A stretch of 64,000 nucleotides of DNA from Denitrobaculum tricleocarpae (GTDB taxonomy: Bacteria > Pseudomonadota > Alphaproteobacteria > Kiloniellales > Kiloniellaceae): the NCBI RefSeq assembly GCF_007004665.1, contig NZ_ML660057.1, forward strand, positions 62,001 through 126,000, in the 5' to 3' direction. The notes under the pieces were generated by a model that made no database searches, was not told the DNA's origin, and saw only the letters and a list, made by a program, of their open reading frames with translations. Position numbers and translations under genes: made by a program. Each line of letters opens with the position of its first letter. The stretch's first letter is position 1. Shown here one piece after another: positions 39,136 to 45,731 of the stretch.

Positions 39136-39615
39136 TTAACCGACCACTTCCCACGAACCATCGGGCTGACGACAGGCGCGGCCGTAGGCATCCTGTGCTT
39201 CCCCGCCCACATAAACCGTGTGGGTGTACTCACGGCAATAACGCCCTTGCGGGCTCTGGTAGGTCTGGACCGGCTTGATGGTGCCTGAGTTTCCGCTGTC
39301 CGGATTGTTCCAGGTCACCTCGTTGCCGGTCGGGGTGTATTCCAGGGCATCCTGCTCTGCACGATAGGCATATTGCTTGTCGGCCTTGTCGAGGCTCTGG
39401 CCGACCTGATTGCCGACAAAAGCACCGATCAGTGCGCCCGCGGCGGTCGCGGCAAGCTGTCCGGATCCGCTGCCGAACTGAGCACCGGCCACGGCGCCAC
39501 CGACGCCGCCAAGCAGTGTGCCGACGGTTTCCTTGGTGCCGTATTGATCGTTGTTCGCACAGCCTGCGACCGAAAGACCCAAGACGGCGACGAGGATGAA
39601 TTTCATAGGTGTCAT
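39136..39615 (-). CDS. Glycine-zipper lipoprotein
   Basis: Lipoprotein of about 159 residues: signal peptide with lipobox LSVAGCAN, then a glycine-zipper 2TM domain (about 32-75: TLLGGVGGAVAGAQFG and AAGALIGAFVGNQVG). A C-terminal domain resembles bacterial surface-antigen-like proteins (YCREYTHTVYVGG, YGRACRQPDGSWEVVG) with two Cys. These proteins are usually outer-membrane associated; the role is not well defined. ATG 39615 or 39606. Upstream lies a cluster of GTTCA half-sites also found at the PhoPQ-like locus. Confidence 0.88.
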   Translation of the reverse strand: MTPMKFILVAVLGLSVAGCANNDQYGTKETVGTLLGGVGGAVAGAQFGSGSGQLAATAAGALIGAFVGNQVGQSLDKADKQYAYRAEQDALEYTPTGNEVTWNNPDSGNSGTIKPVQTYQSPQGRYCREYTHTVYVGGEAQDAYGRACRQPDGSWEVVG

Positions 39616-39714
39616 GGTTGGTCTCACTTTACTTCCAGGTATCCGGCGCAATGCTCTTCACTGCCGCCGTGTGAATATGACGCCAACTCTAGTGCACTCA
39701 GATTGAAACGATGC

Positions 39715-39751
39715 TGAACAGCCTGTTCATCTCCCGTTCAGCTACATGAAC
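39715..39751 (-). promoter_or_regulatory. PhoP-box-like site upstream of glycine-zipper lipoprotein
   Basis: Four GTTCA/TGAAC half-sites in 37 bases: TGAAC 39715-39719, GTTCA 39725-39729, GTTCA 39736-39740, TGAAC 39747-39751. The two central copies are direct repeats with an 11-base period (TGTTCA-N5-CGTTCA), the layout of a PhoP box. The outer copies make overlapping palindromes. The site is about 100 bases upstream of the lipoprotein start. Confidence 0.55.
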
Positions 39752-39777
39752 ATGATTTTTTTCTTTAAAATCAGGTA

Positions 39778-41163
39778 CTAATCGGTTCTTCGCGCACCCG
39801 GCAGTGTCAAAGCCGCCCGCAAACCCTGCGTGGGCGATTCCTGCAGCGCGAGTTTTCCGTCATAAAGTCCCGCAATGTCGGCCACGATTGAGAGGCCGAG
39901 TCCCGAACCTGGAACCGATTCGTCCAGACGCTTTCCCCGCTGGATGACCTCTTCCCGGCGGGCCGGCGGCAGGCCGGGGCCATCGTCGTCCACAAGAATG
40001 CAGAACTCGCCATCGCGGAGACTCACGGAGACATTGACCTGCTCTCTTGCCCACTTACAGGCGTTGTCCATCAGATTGCCGGTCATCTCCTCCAGGTCCT
40101 GACGTTCACCGCGAAACAACAGATCGTCTTCACACTCGACCTCGATCGAGATGTCCCGGCGCGCATGAATGCGCAACAGCGTGCGCCTGAGATCTTCGAG
40201 CACCTCTGCGACCTCGGTGCGAACCCCCAGGACTCCCCCGCTGGCGGCGGTCCGCGCCCGCACCAGATAGTGATCGACGTGGCGCTGCATCAGGATGGTC
40301 TGCTGACTGACCGTATCTGCGAGCGGCTCGGTGGAGGCCGCGGATTCGTTGAGCAGAACTGAAAGCGGCGTTTTCAGCGCATGCGCGAGATTGCCCACAT
40401 GGGTGCGCGCGCGCTCGACAACGGCCGTGTTATGCTCGAGGAGGGCATTGACTTCGGCTGCCAGCGGTTGGATCTCGCTGGGAAAGGGCCCGGTTAACTG
40501 GTCGTCGCGGCCGGAGCGGATATCGGCCAAAGCGACCTGGATACGGCGCAGAGGTTTCAGGCCGAATCGGACCTGAAAAAACATGGCCAGCACCAGGCCG
40601 CCGCCAAGAAGTCCGAGAGACCAGGCCAGAGTCGAATTAAAGCGCCGGATGTCGGCGACCATTTCCGATCGATCGCCCGCCACGACAAAATCCAGCGGAA
40701 AATCCGCCCCGGCCAGGATAATCTCCCGCGCGACAAGACGCAGGCTCTGGCCATCCGGACCGGGCACATTCGCGGTTCGAAGATCCGCCCCGGCCTTGGG
40801 ATCGGGCCCGGGCAACGTCCAATCCCAAAGCGAACGCGATCGCAGGGGTTCCAGAAGAACAGGCTCCGGAGCGCCCGCGTCTGTCCGGCGCTGGGAAATC
40901 TGCCAATACCAGCCTGAGTAAGGCTGCTCAAAGCGTGCTTCGCTGAGCGCCGCCGTCATATCGACGCGGCCTTCGGCAGCGATTTCGCTTCCTGTTACAA
41001 GGCTTTCCAGCAAGACGGTCAGACGATCGTCGAACGACCGCTCGACATACTCCAGAAACAGGGACGATAAAACCAGACCCCCGACGGCCAGGCCCGATAC
41101 GCACCAGAGCGCCGCGCCGGCGATCAACCGGAATGCCAGGGACCTGGACCCATTGTTGATCAT
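39778..41163 (-). CDS. PhoQ/QseC-like sensor histidine kinase
   Basis: Membrane kinase of about 461 residues. First membrane segment about 12-37, periplasmic sensor to about 170, second segment, HAMP, then HisKA with NLAHALKTPLSVLLNE (the HALKTP form typical of PhoQ-type kinases). The ATPase domain shows NLMDNACKWA, VDDDGPGLP and GSGLGLSIV. ATG 41163 is four bases after the response-regulator stop, so it is co-transcribed with it. PhoQ senses divalent cations, acid or cationic peptides; the signal here is inference only. Confidence 0.92.
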   Translation of the reverse strand: MINNGSRSLAFRLIAGAALWCVSGLAVGGLVLSSLFLEYVERSFDDRLTVLLESLVTGSEIAAEGRVDMTAALSEARFEQPYSGWYWQISQRRTDAGAPEPVLLEPLRSRSLWDWTLPGPDPKAGADLRTANVPGPDGQSLRLVAREIILAGADFPLDFVVAGDRSEMVADIRRFNSTLAWSLGLLGGGLVLAMFFQVRFGLKPLRRIQVALADIRSGRDDQLTGPFPSEIQPLAAEVNALLEHNTAVVERARTHVGNLAHALKTPLSVLLNESAASTEPLADTVSQQTILMQRHVDHYLVRARTAASGGVLGVRTEVAEVLEDLRRTLLRIHARRDISIEVECEDDLLFRGERQDLEEMTGNLMDNACKWAREQVNVSVSLRDGEFCILVDDDGPGLPPARREEVIQRGKRLDESVPGSGLGLSIVADIAGLYDGKLALQESPTQGLRAALTLPGARRTD

Positions 41164-41167
41164 TGGA

Positions 41168-41839
41168 TCAGGCACCGTCTTCGGGCTCGGCAAGACAATA
41201 GCCAAGGCCTCGGACGGTTTGGATCAGATTCACCTTCAGCTTTTTGCGGAGCCGTCCAACGAAGACTTCGACGGTATTGGAATCCCGGTCAAAGTCCTGG
41301 TCATAGAGGTGCTCGGTCAGCTCGATGCGCGATACGACCCGTCCGCGGTGATGCATGAGGTAAGTCAGAAGGCGATACTCCAGTGACGTCAGTTTCACTG
41401 CCGTCCCGTTCACCGTAACCCGCGCGGCCCGGGTGTCGATCAAAAGCGGTCCGCATTCGAGCTCGTTGGTCGCATGACCGGCCGCCCGGCGCAGAAGCGC
41501 ACGGATGCGCGCCAGGAGTTCTTCCATGACGAAGGGCTTTGCAAGATAATCGTCGGCACCGGCATCAAAACCTGCCACCTTCTCGCTCCAGCGGTCTCTC
41601 GCGGTCAGAATCAGGACCGGCATACTTCGTCCGTCACGGCGCCAGCGCTCCAGAACCGTCAGGCCATCGATCTTTGGCAGCCCGAGATCCAGAACAACGC
41701 CGTCATAGGGTTCCGTATCGCCCAAAAAGTGCCCGTCCTCGCCATTATGAGCGGCATCAACCACATATCCGGCATCCTCGAGCCCGGCTTTCAACTGGCG
41801 GGCAAGATCCGGATCGTCTTCAACGACCAAGAGCCGCAT
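41168..41839 (-). CDS. PhoP-like OmpR-family response regulator
   Basis: Regulator of 223 residues. The receiver begins MRLLVVEDDPDLARQL, phospho-acceptor Asp in GVVLDLGLPKIDGL, conserved Lys in DDYLAKPFVMEEL. A winged-helix DNA-binding domain follows (LTSLEYRLLTYLMHHRGRVV, NTVEVFVGRLRKKL, TVRGLGYCL). The overall sequence is closest in feel to PhoP. It lies between a PepSY gene upstream and its kinase downstream. GTTCA direct repeats with the 11-bp PhoP-box period precede the operon, so autoregulation is likely. Confidence 0.92.
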   Translation of the reverse strand: MRLLVVEDDPDLARQLKAGLEDAGYVVDAAHNGEDGHFLGDTEPYDGVVLDLGLPKIDGLTVLERWRRDGRSMPVLILTARDRWSEKVAGFDAGADDYLAKPFVMEELLARIRALLRRAAGHATNELECGPLLIDTRAARVTVNGTAVKLTSLEYRLLTYLMHHRGRVVSRIELTEHLYDQDFDRDSNTVEVFVGRLRKKLKVNLIQTVRGLGYCLAEPEDGA

Positions 41840-41911
41840 CGCTTTTCCTTTTTAATTCAGAGGGTTCGCTTTGGATTTCTGCTCCGCCACAGCTCAACAA
41901 CGCCATAGTCT

Positions 41912-42232
41912 TCACTTCAGGATACGGCCGCTGCGGGCATCGACGGTCACACGCCGGACTTTGCCGTTTTTACCCAGGATCTTAATGACATAGCGGTACT
42001 TTCCGCCGTTCCGGGTCAGCTTCGCGTCCAGCAGTCTGCCTGGATAGCGTGCGCGGACCTTGGGCAAAATCGCATCCAGGGGCTGAGCCTGACCGCTGGA
42101 GACAGCATCCCGCGCCCTGTCATGGTCCTGCGCGGACACAGGTGGCACGGAAAGCATGACAACGGCCAGCCCCAGCGCAAATAGCAGGGCGCGGGCGGGT
42201 TGGCAGAGAAATGTCACGAGTTGCTGCATCAT
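41912..42232 (-). CDS. Small exported PepSY-domain protein
   Basis: Exported protein of about 106 residues: signal peptide ending VPPVSAQDH, then a PepSY domain (AILPKVRARYPGRLLDAKLT and a C-terminal VDARSGRILK motif). PepSY domains often regulate proteases or bind to sensor proteins; next to two-component genes they are thought to tune the kinase. It is the first gene of the operon with the PhoPQ-like pair (72-base gap). ATG 42232 marks the signal peptide. The C-terminal end is similar to that of the divergent His-rich protein. Confidence 0.85.
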   Translation of the reverse strand: MMQQLVTFLCQPARALLFALGLAVVMLSVPPVSAQDHDRARDAVSSGQAQPLDAILPKVRARYPGRLLDAKLTRNGGKYRYVIKILGKNGKVRRVTVDARSGRILK

Positions 42233-42257
42233 GGCCACTTTCCTAGCCCCTGGAACC

Positions 42258-42294
42258 TGAACAGCGAATGAACAGCCCATCCAGGATCAGTTCA
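42258..42294. promoter_or_regulatory. PhoP-box-like site in PepSY-phoPQ / His-rich divergent promoter
   Basis: TGAAC at 42258-42262 and 42269-42273 gives, on the minus strand, TGTTCA-N5-TGTTCA with an 11-base period. A third half-site GTTCA is at 42290-42294. It lies between two divergent starts (42232 and 42363), where one site could control both. The same arrangement occurs at 39715-39751. Confidence 0.6.
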
Positions 42295-42362
42295 GCGGGA
42301 CTATGGCAGTGTCCCTCACCATCGTCCATCCCACCCGGATGAAACTTGGTTTGGAGGCACAC

Positions 42363-42854
42363 ATGAGAAAACTACTGATCCTATTCGGCGCGCTCAGCAT
42401 GATCCTGGCCGGCACAGCCGGCGCGCAAGCCGGTGACCGGCACGGTGGGCACAACAGCAGCCGTCACTACAGCCATAGCTATCATTCCAGCCCTTACTGG
42501 GCCGGGGCCATCTTCTTTGGCCATCATGACCGCGGCCACCGAGCCTATGACCGGCGTTACGACCGCCGCTACGGACACCATCGCTCGCATCGGCATTACG
42601 GTCACAAGCACGGATACTATGACCGTCACGGCTACTACAAGAAACACAAGCACGGACACAAGTTTCACAAGCGCCGTATCCTGCCGATCAAAAAGATCGT
42701 CAAGAAGCTTCGCCACCGCAACTACCACGACATCTCAAGGATCGTCTTGAAACACGACCGCTACAGAGTCCGCGCATATGATCGGAAGGGACGCCCGGTG
42801 AAGCTGGTCGTGAACGCCCACAATGGCCGTATTCTTAAGAAGCGATACCGGTAG
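42363..42854 (+). CDS. Exported His/Tyr/Arg-rich protein with PepSY-like C-terminus
   Basis: Exported protein of about 163 residues with a signal peptide ending TAGAQAGD. The mature part to about residue 115 is extremely rich in His, Tyr, Arg, Gly and Lys (segments such as HYSHSYHSSPYW and YDRRYGHHRSHRHYG). The C-terminal 45 residues (RIVLKHDRYRVRAYDRKGRP, NAHNGRILKK) resemble the end of the PepSY protein encoded divergently. Metal or anion binding is plausible (inference). ATG 42363 follows GGAGG. It shares a promoter region with the PhoPQ-like operon. Confidence 0.8.
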   Translation: MRKLLILFGALSMILAGTAGAQAGDRHGGHNSSRHYSHSYHSSPYWAGAIFFGHHDRGHRAYDRRYDRRYGHHRSHRHYGHKHGYYDRHGYYKKHKHGHKFHKRRILPIKKIVKKLRHRNYHDISRIVLKHDRYRVRAYDRKGRPVKLVVNAHNGRILKKRYR

Positions 42855-44102: not shown

Positions 44103-45731
44103 ATGGACAAAGATACGGATATCAGCAACGGCTTGAGCTTCGCGGGACTCGACACCGCAGTGCGAGGGCGTCTGCCGGCAATCTTCTCGAATCTCGAGGG
44201 CGACCTGCCCCAACTGATGGACGATTTTTATGGTTTTGTCGGCGATTGGGATGCTTTGAATCAACTCACCGACAACGGTGCACGGGTTCCATATCTGAAA
44301 TCTGCGCAGATCGAGCATTGGAAACTGTTGTTCTCAGGCCGCTTTGACGCCGAGTATTTCACCCGGGCAAAAGCAATCGGCAACGCCCACCGCAGAATCG
44401 GCCTGGGCCCCAACTGGTACATCGGCGCATACAGCTTTCTTCTCTCACGGATCAACAAGCTGTTGGTGCAGCAGTATCGGCGCAAACCTCAACAGCTCAA
44501 CGACGCACAGGAAGCTGTGACCCGCGCCATCCTCTTCGACATGGAACAGGCGGTCTCGGTCTACATCGAAGCCGGACAACAGAACCTGCAGGACGAACTC
44601 TCAAAACTTGCGGACAGCCTGGAGACGGAAATCAACGGCGCAATCGACATCGTTGCAAAACAGGGCATGGAAATGAAAGAGACGGCCAGCAAGATGCTGG
44701 CGGCCTCCGAGCGCTCCGGCTCCAGCGCGACCGCCGTCGCCTCGGCCTCGGAAGAGGCCTCGGCCAATGTCGAGACCGTGGCCGCCGCGACAGAAGAATT
44801 CACCGCGACGGTGAAGGAAATCGGCCGCCAGACGGACCAATCGAAGGAAGTCACACAAAAAGCAGTTCAGGAGGCCGAGGACGCCGGCCGGATTATGAGC
44901 GAGCTTGACGGCCTCTCCCAGGAGATCGGCGATATCGTCAAGGTTATTTCCGACATCGCCGCGCAAACCAACTTACTGGCCCTCAACGCAACCATTGAGG
45001 CCGCGCGCGCGGGGGAAGCCGGAAAGGGTTTCGCTGTCGTCGCGGGTGAGGTCAAGAGCCTCGCCAACCAGACAGCAAAGGCGACCGACGAGATCAGCTC
45101 CCAGGTCACGAAGGTTCAGGAATCGACCAACCTTGCCGTCGGCGCCATCAAGTCGATCAGCGAAATCATCGAAAAGATGGATCAGGTCTCCGCGGCGATC
45201 GACCAGGCGGCCGAGCAGCAGAATGCGGCATCGGATGAAATCGCCAACAACATCCAGGAAGCGGCCGCCGGTAACCGCGAGGTCGCCGTGAATATTCAAA
45301 CCGTTGCGACCGAGGCGTCGGAGGTGCTCCAGCTTTCGAACGAAGTTCAAACAGGCACAGACAGAAGCAGCGAAGCCGTTGCGCAACTCGGTGAAGGAGT
45401 CTCGAAGATCCTCTCTCAGCTCCGCCGGCACGAAGCTTTTGACCGGCGGGAACACACCCGGGTCGCCACGCACGAGAACTCCGAAGTTTTCGCGAAGGGT
45501 CAGTGGCACCAGTGTCTGATTAATGACATTTCCGCCGGCGGTGCCGAGATCGCCGCGATTGATGGCCTCGGTGAAGGCGATGCAATCAAGCTCAAGGTGC
45601 CGGGCTTCGGCGAGGTCGACGGCCGCATCCTGCGTGTGACGCCCAAGTCCCGCGGGATCGGGTTCGACCTCGACGATCAGACCGCGCGAAGCCTCGGTCA
45701 GCATCTTTCCGGCTTACGATCCGCGGCCTGA
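44103..45731 (+). CDS. Globin-coupled chemoreceptor with C-terminal PilZ domain
   Basis: Soluble receptor of 542 residues with no membrane segment. An N-terminal protoglobin-type sensor (about 10-160) has proximal His96 in [16 protein letters not shown], so it should bind haem and sense oxygen as in HemAT. The methyl-accepting signalling domain (about 170-440) has the hairpin-tip sequence around [21 protein letters not shown] PilZ domain (about 450-540) carries the c-di-GMP motifs RxxxR (REHTR) and DxSxxG (DISAGG). This would join oxygen sensing, chemotaxis and c-di-GMP in one chain. No CheB/CheR pentapeptide ends the protein. Confidence 0.93.

Follow-up and report, generated by a model that had tools for sequence, protein, structure and literature searches.

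A probable FeuPQ-type two-component system with a PepSY-domain brake and a four-half-site operator in Denitrobaculum tricleocarpae

We describe a two-component locus of the alphaproteobacterium Denitrobaculum tricleocarpae, located in a 64-kb stretch (the window) of its 6.4-Mb genome and compared across four genomes of the genus, the source and three genus-mates. The locus encodes a small secreted PepSY protein, an OmpR-family response regulator and a sensor histidine kinase, together with a divergent gene for an exported His-rich protein and a lipoprotein gene beyond the kinase. We consider it probable that the locus belongs to the FeuPQ type of envelope-sensing two-component systems and that a PepSY-domain protein serves as its brake. 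On sequence comparison, the nearest characterised system that we found is FeuNPQ of Sinorhizobium meliloti and not PhoPQ, to which an initial annotation of the same DNA had likened it.

Results

Relation to FeuNPQ

The search of the window regulator into S. meliloti covered one replicon record and returned a single match at E<=1e-70, the annotated feuP, with 69% identity over 222 residues. In the reverse search FeuP found this regulator in the source genome at 355 bits, followed by the next regulator at 175 bits (43% identity). The kinase aligns with FeuQ from residue 21 to residue 471, sensor and transmitter included, at 38% identity over 468 columns. In S. meliloti the genes are ordered feuN, feuP, feuQ, and next comes the gene of a 148-aa protein that shares 39% identity with the lipoprotein of the window. 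Upstream of feuN lies TTCATTTGCCATTCA, a copy of TTCA-N7-TTCA, which as motif 3 was proposed in 2013 as the FeuP site, at feuN among other places (PMC3616915); the same candidate motif is present in the promoter of the window operon. Among 21 plasmid-collection records with a regulator match, seven were examined; the repeat is upstream in all seven and PepSY in five, the two Rhizobiaceae carrying FeuN in place of PepSY. The smallest clade that unites the window regulator and FeuP in a 124-regulator tree has 28 members, 27 of them with the repeat, as opposed to 52 of the 96 outside it. Small FeuN-like proteins with two conserved cysteines also occur as stand-alone genes on Rhizobium plasmids (L184:1932-2201, L185:1974-2234, L187:1908-2168), and no kinase is annotated within 2 kb of these three.

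The PepSY gene and its regulator

All parts of the locus are kept in the four genus genomes: the genes for PepSY protein, regulator and kinase, the divergent gene for the His-rich protein and its PepSY tail, and both repeats. The PepSY protein reaches 34.8 bits against PF03413 (cut-off 24) and is the only match to this family in the whole genome; in the kinase a Pfam scan finds HATPase_c above its cut-off and HAMP and HisKA below theirs. Domain matches and gene order confirm the PepSY-regulator-kinase operon of the initial annotation. The PepSY protein most likely starts at ATG 42232, because the longer ORF of 122 aa would overlap the operator described below; a second candidate is the in-frame GTG at 42238. 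For the His-rich protein the most likely start is ATG 42363, which has a Shine-Dalgarno-like GGAGG.

Regulator searches gave 118 loci, the window locus included and second retrievals of the four genus loci left out. A PepSY ORF stands directly upstream on the same strand in 102 of them, and three of the other 16 are cut by contig ends. Removal of redundancy and of the genus leaves 90 PepSY-positive loci (the outside loci). TTCA-N7-TTCA occurs in the upstream kilobase of 57, compared with one of 90 for each of the control spacings 5, 6, 8 and 9 of the same words and two of 90 for control stretches downstream of the regulator. The repeat follows regulator relatedness, being found in 35 of 36 loci at 70% identity or higher. 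The expectation that homologous loci would keep the parts of this one holds for the PepSY gene, the regulator and the repeat, which recur together widely; the His-rich and lipoprotein genes recur in some families only.

Two loci without a PepSY match (L139, L141) have, upstream of the regulator, exported-looking proteins of about 170 aa that end ...SNVDSAYLAGVR...VEDVYSNIF... and are likewise preceded by TTCA-N7-TTCA. A PepSY-regulator locus with the same repeat, TTCAGCTTCTGTTCA, is also present on the megaplasmid of a betaproteobacterium, Cupriavidus metallidurans CH34 (L178), which belongs to the seven plasmid-collection records examined.

A four-half-site operator

The direct repeat TGTTCA-N5-TGTTCA noted earlier in the shared promoter is present as TGTTCATTCGCTGTTCA at 42258-42274 (minus strand). 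Alignment of the promoters of the four genus genomes reveals that it is half of a 37-bp inverted array of four half-sites, with the consensus TGAACN-N5-TGAACN-N3-NNTYCA-N5-NNYTCA, in which two repeats of 11-bp period face each other. A second repeat, assigned to the lipoprotein gene, does exist as TGTTCATCTCCCGTTCA at 39724-39740 (plus strand) but points away from that gene; the arm nearest the lipoprotein gene is TGTTCA-N5-GTTTCA. The genome holds three exact copies of the operator, the two at 42258-42294 and 39704-39740 and a third outside the window, on another contig (G000:C11:3966-4002), and each has an exact counterpart in every genus-mate. The third copy precedes a gene for an exported His/Asp-rich protein with a 17-kDa-antigen-like tail, a weak match to PF16998 (16.4 bits, cut-off 26.6), and adjoins an M23-like gene in four of the four genomes and a ClpB-like gene in three (names read from the translations).

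The motif search by half-site and 11-bp period suggested in the initial annotation was run, and the repeat exceeds the reversed-pattern counts, with both window sites kept in four of four genomes. TGTTCA-N5-TGTTCA occurs twice in the 6.4 Mb, the second time within an ORF read as a chemoreceptor. GTTCATN4CGTTCA has three matches in each of the four genus genomes and none when reversed; ten of these 12 are operator sites, those on G000:C14 and G001:C13 being the others, and the stringent matches L029 and L032 are not common sites. The looser GTTCA-N6-GTTCA gives 39 matches in the four genomes versus 6 reversed, and among those of the loci that were read, the three operator sites are the only ones that recur in all four. 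When two mismatches are allowed in the whole operator, no extra site is common to all four genomes (reversed controls give one match). The extra matches lie mostly within ORFs, among them a pair common to two genomes in a gyrase/topoisomerase-like ORF and two others; L201, in genome G001, is upstream of a large ORF and also inside a shorter ORF of the opposite strand. The exception is the second system of G001, a further PepSY-regulator-kinase set (L019, G001:C9:160408-161064) with its own operator at G001:C9:159677-159713, which has four half-sites and one mismatch to the strict pattern. Separately, GTTCAGGTCCTGTTCA is flanked by the same pair of ORFs in only the two closest genus genomes (L034, L037, 1501-1516), with no counterpart seen in the other two; it is a possible further target.

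Across the class, the strict four-site pattern yields 19 sites in 14 of 385 genomes, and the reversed pattern none on either strand. Ten of the 16 sites outside the source genome share a 3-kb stretch with PepSY and regulator matches (two of them about 1 kb away), one adjoins a regulator-kinase end, and another precedes a protein that has PepSY_2 domains; the remaining four (three in G064, one in G224) are near no PepSY or regulator match on their stretch. The inverted arrangement also appears when 67 repeats are scored for partners, a few loci being counted twice with both arms exact. A repeat on the opposite strand (at least 7 of 8 letters) sits at an offset of exactly 22 for 27 of the 67, and any other offset is found at most twice; with the threshold at 6 of 8 letters, offset 22 has 36 partners, and the register-shifted offsets 33 and 11 have 13 and 12. 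Conservation in the genus and recurrence at PepSY-regulator loci support the motif as the probable operator of the circuit.

Promoters and a predicted leaderless mRNA

For 38 of the 67 repeats a TA is found exactly 12 nt downstream, the position of the predicted -10 elements of the PepSY and lipoprotein promoters in the window (Table 1). The TA is oriented toward PepSY in 42 promoters, of which four belong to the genus and 38 do not. The first in-frame PepSY ATG follows the TA by 11 to 16 nt in 37 of them, and by 12 or 13 nt in 29. The usual spacing from -10 to transcription start would put +1 on or beside such an ATG, and therefore the distribution suggests that the mRNA of the PepSY brake is leaderless.

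The same distance of 12 nt between repeat and -10 is found in Salmonella PhoP promoters. In those of architectures I and II a direct box 12 nt from the -10 is reported to activate, and at ybjX expression is more than 8-fold higher with an upstream box in reversed orientation (PMC3335776).

On the other side of the divergent promoter, the 5' leader of the His-rich gene (42301-42362) is nearly invariant among the four genus members, while the adjoining signal-peptide codons diverge. An Rfam search of the locus, this leader included, returned no match; the leader could be an RNA or regulatory element.

Putative outputs

The initial annotation had also pointed to a PepSY-like end in the divergent exported protein, and this tail passes the PepSY_2 cut-off (25.9 bits, cut-off 24.3). 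It scores 24.5 bits against a profile built from upstream PepSY proteins only, and is modelled as a helix and four strands with pLDDT above 90. Among solved structures YpmB matches it best, with probability 1.00 and an rmsd of 1.9 over 63 columns, though at E 0.035, and no structure matches at E<=0.001. A second PepSY-type ORF, upstream on the opposite strand, is found in 17 of the 90 outside loci at E<1e-5 and in 23 at E<1e-3. In the four loci with the closest regulators (74-80% identity) the divergent proteins are His/Arg-rich like that of the window; in more distant loci they are His-poor and some are acidic. In three genomes of one genus the divergent protein fuses a His-rich stretch, a glycine zipper and a 17-kDa tail (Pfam scan of one), a single chain that links the two outputs of the window.

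A 17-kDa gene after the kinase is also found in S. meliloti and Shinella (L177, L182); in these two records no repeat of at least 6 of 8 letters was found before it. In three loci of another genus a lipoprotein gene comes after the kinase, and the spacer between the two holds the repeat, about 30 nt past the kinase stop. Operators lie upstream of both the His-rich and the lipoprotein genes. The earlier view that both are likely outputs is supported. A universal partnership of the 17-kDa lipoprotein with this circuit was rejected on the outside loci, as detailed below.

Elsewhere in the window, positions 44103-45731 (plus strand) encode a chemoreceptor-like protein with protoglobin, MCP signalling and PilZ domains, all above Pfam cut-offs, which would make it an oxygen or gas sensor, possibly gated by c-di-GMP.

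Table 1. Coordinates of the genes, operators and predicted promoter elements of the locus in the window
Feature	Position	Strand	Basis
Secreted PepSY protein, 106 aa, in the FeuN/DbfQ position, predicted kinase brake	41912..42232	-	PF03413 match, orthologues
OmpR-family response regulator, FeuP orthologue	41168..41839	-	69% identity to S. meliloti FeuP
FeuQ-like sensor histidine kinase with PhoQ-type catalytic domain	39778..41163	-	38% to FeuQ over 468 columns
Exported His/Tyr/Arg-rich protein, C-terminal PepSY fold, predicted output	42363..42854	+	Pfam, profile, model
17-kDa-antigen/glycine-zipper lipoprotein, predicted output	39136..39615	-	Pfam; homologue after feuQ in S. meliloti
Operator copy 1, divergent PepSY/His-rich promoter: TGAACA-N5-TGAACA-N3-CATCCA-N5-AGTTCA	42258..42294	+	Pattern search, alignment
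Operator copy 2, between kinase and lipoprotein: TGAACG-N5-TGAACA-N3-TGTTCA-N5-GTTTCA	39704..39740	-	Pattern search, alignment
Predicted -10 TAGGAA, 12 nt after the proximal repeat; predicted +1 42233/42232, the PepSY ATG	42240..42245	-	Inferred
Predicted lipoprotein-gene -10, TAGAGT, 12 nt after the proximal repeat	39686..39691	-	Inferred

Discussion

The position of the PepSY gene is that of two described kinase brakes. FeuN binds and restrains FeuQ, and its absence costs viability; FeuPQ responds to osmotic stress and to a host peptide (both as reported in PMC12486126). DbfQ, a PepSY protein encoded just upstream of dbfRS, is reported to bind the DbfS sensor and to shift it to a phosphatase, the system being activated by outer-membrane damage; the same report finds PepSY-two-component neighbourhoods more than 60-fold above expectation, some with two PepSY genes (PMC12714742). 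The locus fits the definition of such a module: its PepSY protein is small and secreted and is encoded no more than four genes from a kinase and a regulator. Judged by position and domain, the window PepSY protein most likely acts on its kinase in a like manner.

By analogy with FeuN and DbfQ, both the signal and the tuning of the kinase, which the initial annotation had proposed, can be framed as a model. Once phosphorylated, the regulator would bind the direct repeats, which lie 12 nt before the -10, and switch on both the outputs and the operon that encodes it. From the first gene of that operon, predicted to be leaderless, would come a periplasmic PepSY protein that binds the kinase sensor and shifts the kinase to a phosphatase, closing a negative-feedback loop like those of FeuN-FeuQ and DbfQ-DbfS. 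Envelope damage or cationic agents would lift the PepSY brake, and the His-rich and 17-kDa-type proteins would reach the envelope, where they may buffer cations or metals or reinforce the outer membrane. We infer, then, an operon that activates itself together with its own brake, and its outputs with them.

A number of observations weigh against this interpretation or parts of it. FeuN is not convincingly a PepSY protein by sequence: it scores 7.8 bits against the PepSY profile (2 of 5000 shuffles score as high), six members of its family score 1.8-7.6 bits, a profile-profile comparison gives a probability of 6.9 with 5 of 100 column shuffles higher, and a Pfam scan of FeuN finds no match. The clade uniting the window regulator with FeuP has a support of only 0.19, and the kinase sensor is poorly modelled (pLDDT 57). 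The exact repeat is absent from 33 of the 90 outside loci, and below 70% regulator identity it is found in 22 of 54. Nearer in-frame ATG, GTG or TTG codons occur in 9 of the 42 promoters, as do Shine-Dalgarno-like words (also 9 of 42), the window promoter being counted in both; there, an in-frame GTG follows the TA by 7 nt and the -10 contains an AGGA that scores as Shine-Dalgarno-like, which makes a leaderless mRNA less clear-cut for this promoter than for the others. The His-rich promoter has CAGTGT instead of the TA at +12. Among the 54 outside loci that could be assessed, only 3 have a 17-kDa gene after the kinase; these stretches reach about 0.6 kb past the kinase, so that genes farther away would be missed.

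Could the locus instead be a true PhoPQ orthologue, a sensor of Mg2+, cationic peptides or acid whose repeats are PhoP boxes? The PhoQ catalytic domain is the best solved-structure match of the kinase, and the promoter geometry is like PhoP architectures I and II. Yet the regulator reaches 200.2 bits where the NCBIfam PhoP cut-off is 336, and the kinase 158.4 bits where that of PhoQ is 497, with the PhoQ model covering kinase residues 208-465 and leaving out the sensor; PhoPQ identity was rejected on these grounds, and the membership proposed initially falls with it. By sequence alone, no PhoQ-sensor family appears among the Pfam matches of the kinase up to E of 1. PmrA/BasR outscores PhoP for the regulator, FeuP is far closer still, and the half-site is GTTCA rather than GTTTA, so that we regard PhoPQ orthology as very improbable.

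A metal-homeostasis system of the BqsRS or CarRS kind, in which the PepSY and His-rich proteins bind metal, is unlikely in our view, though more plausible than PhoPQ and partly compatible with a FeuPQ-type system. The His-rich and His/Asp-rich outputs fit it, and reports describe a PepSY protein, UipA, that binds uranium (PMC8963506) and BqsS as a ferrous-iron sensor (PMC12666569). At other loci, however, the divergent proteins are rich in Arg or in acidic residues, or are not His-rich, no recognisable metal transporter is encoded behind any of the three exact operator copies of this genome, and the reported stimuli of FeuPQ are osmotic stress and a host peptide (PMC12486126). It is improbable that the PepSY protein is an output or a protease modulator, placed in the operon for co-regulation only, rather than a brake. 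PepSY proteins have been linked to protease inhibition as well as metal binding (PMC12714742), and the divergent second PepSY protein does resemble an output; against this stand the 102 of 118 loci with PepSY directly upstream of the regulator, and the restraint of kinases by FeuN and DbfQ from the same slot (PMC12486126, PMC12714742).

The preferred reading, a FeuPQ-type system with a PepSY brake, places side by side two brakes that have been described separately, the FeuN of symbiotic rhizobia and DbfQ, the PepSY protein of Vibrio, and indicates that in many other Alphaproteobacteria a PepSY gene occupies the feuN slot of FeuP-type circuits. The rhizobial relative of the circuit is needed for symbiosis. 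FeuN has 0 mentions in the main text of the DbfQ paper (PMC12714742), and a limited literature search, for which we claim nothing wider, returned no paper with both words FeuN and PepSY. Relative to the literature consulted for comparison, the four-half-site operator and its spread appear new, as do the predicted leaderless brake gene and the putative His-rich/PepSY and 17-kDa outputs. So precise an operator, with four half-sites, fixed spacing and a fixed distance to the -10, allows regulons to be sought without expression data, and the predicted leaderless mRNA and the His-rich PepSY partner make the signal of FeuQ/DbfS-type kinases directly testable. A bolder proposal, to which we give a small chance, is that FeuN, DbfQ and the PepSY brakes form one class, leaderless and autoregulated from a palindromic pair of direct repeats in Alphaproteobacteria, with the His-rich PepSY protein as a cation-loaded rival ligand and the ratio of the two PepSY proteins reading the cation load of the envelope.

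How does the locus compare with known systems? With Salmonella PhoPQ it shares direct repeats of 11-bp period 12 nt from the -10, there sometimes with a reversed upstream box, and the PhoQ-type catalytic domain of its kinase; it differs in half-site sequence, in sensor domain and in missing the family cut-offs. To our knowledge, the PhoPQ operon of Salmonella contains no PepSY gene. UzcRS of Caulobacter crescentus is likewise an alphaproteobacterial envelope/metal two-component system that activates exported proteins, but the UzcR site is CATTAC-N6-TTAA whereas the window has GTTCA repeats, and identity of the motifs was rejected. DbfQRS of Vibrio cholerae was compared at the level of gene arrangement, and there too the gene of a small secreted PepSY protein comes directly before those of regulator and kinase; the consulted part of the DbfQRS account does not describe a four-half-site operator or a His-rich second PepSY protein (PMC12714742). 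FeuNPQ shares with the window locus the order small periplasmic protein, regulator, kinase, the close regulator, TTCA-N7-TTCA upstream and a 17-kDa-type gene after the kinase. In the window a PepSY protein stands in for FeuN, the operator has four half-sites and a His-rich gene diverges from it, and three exact operator sites in the genome compare with a FeuP regulon reported as at least 14 genes (PMC3616915).

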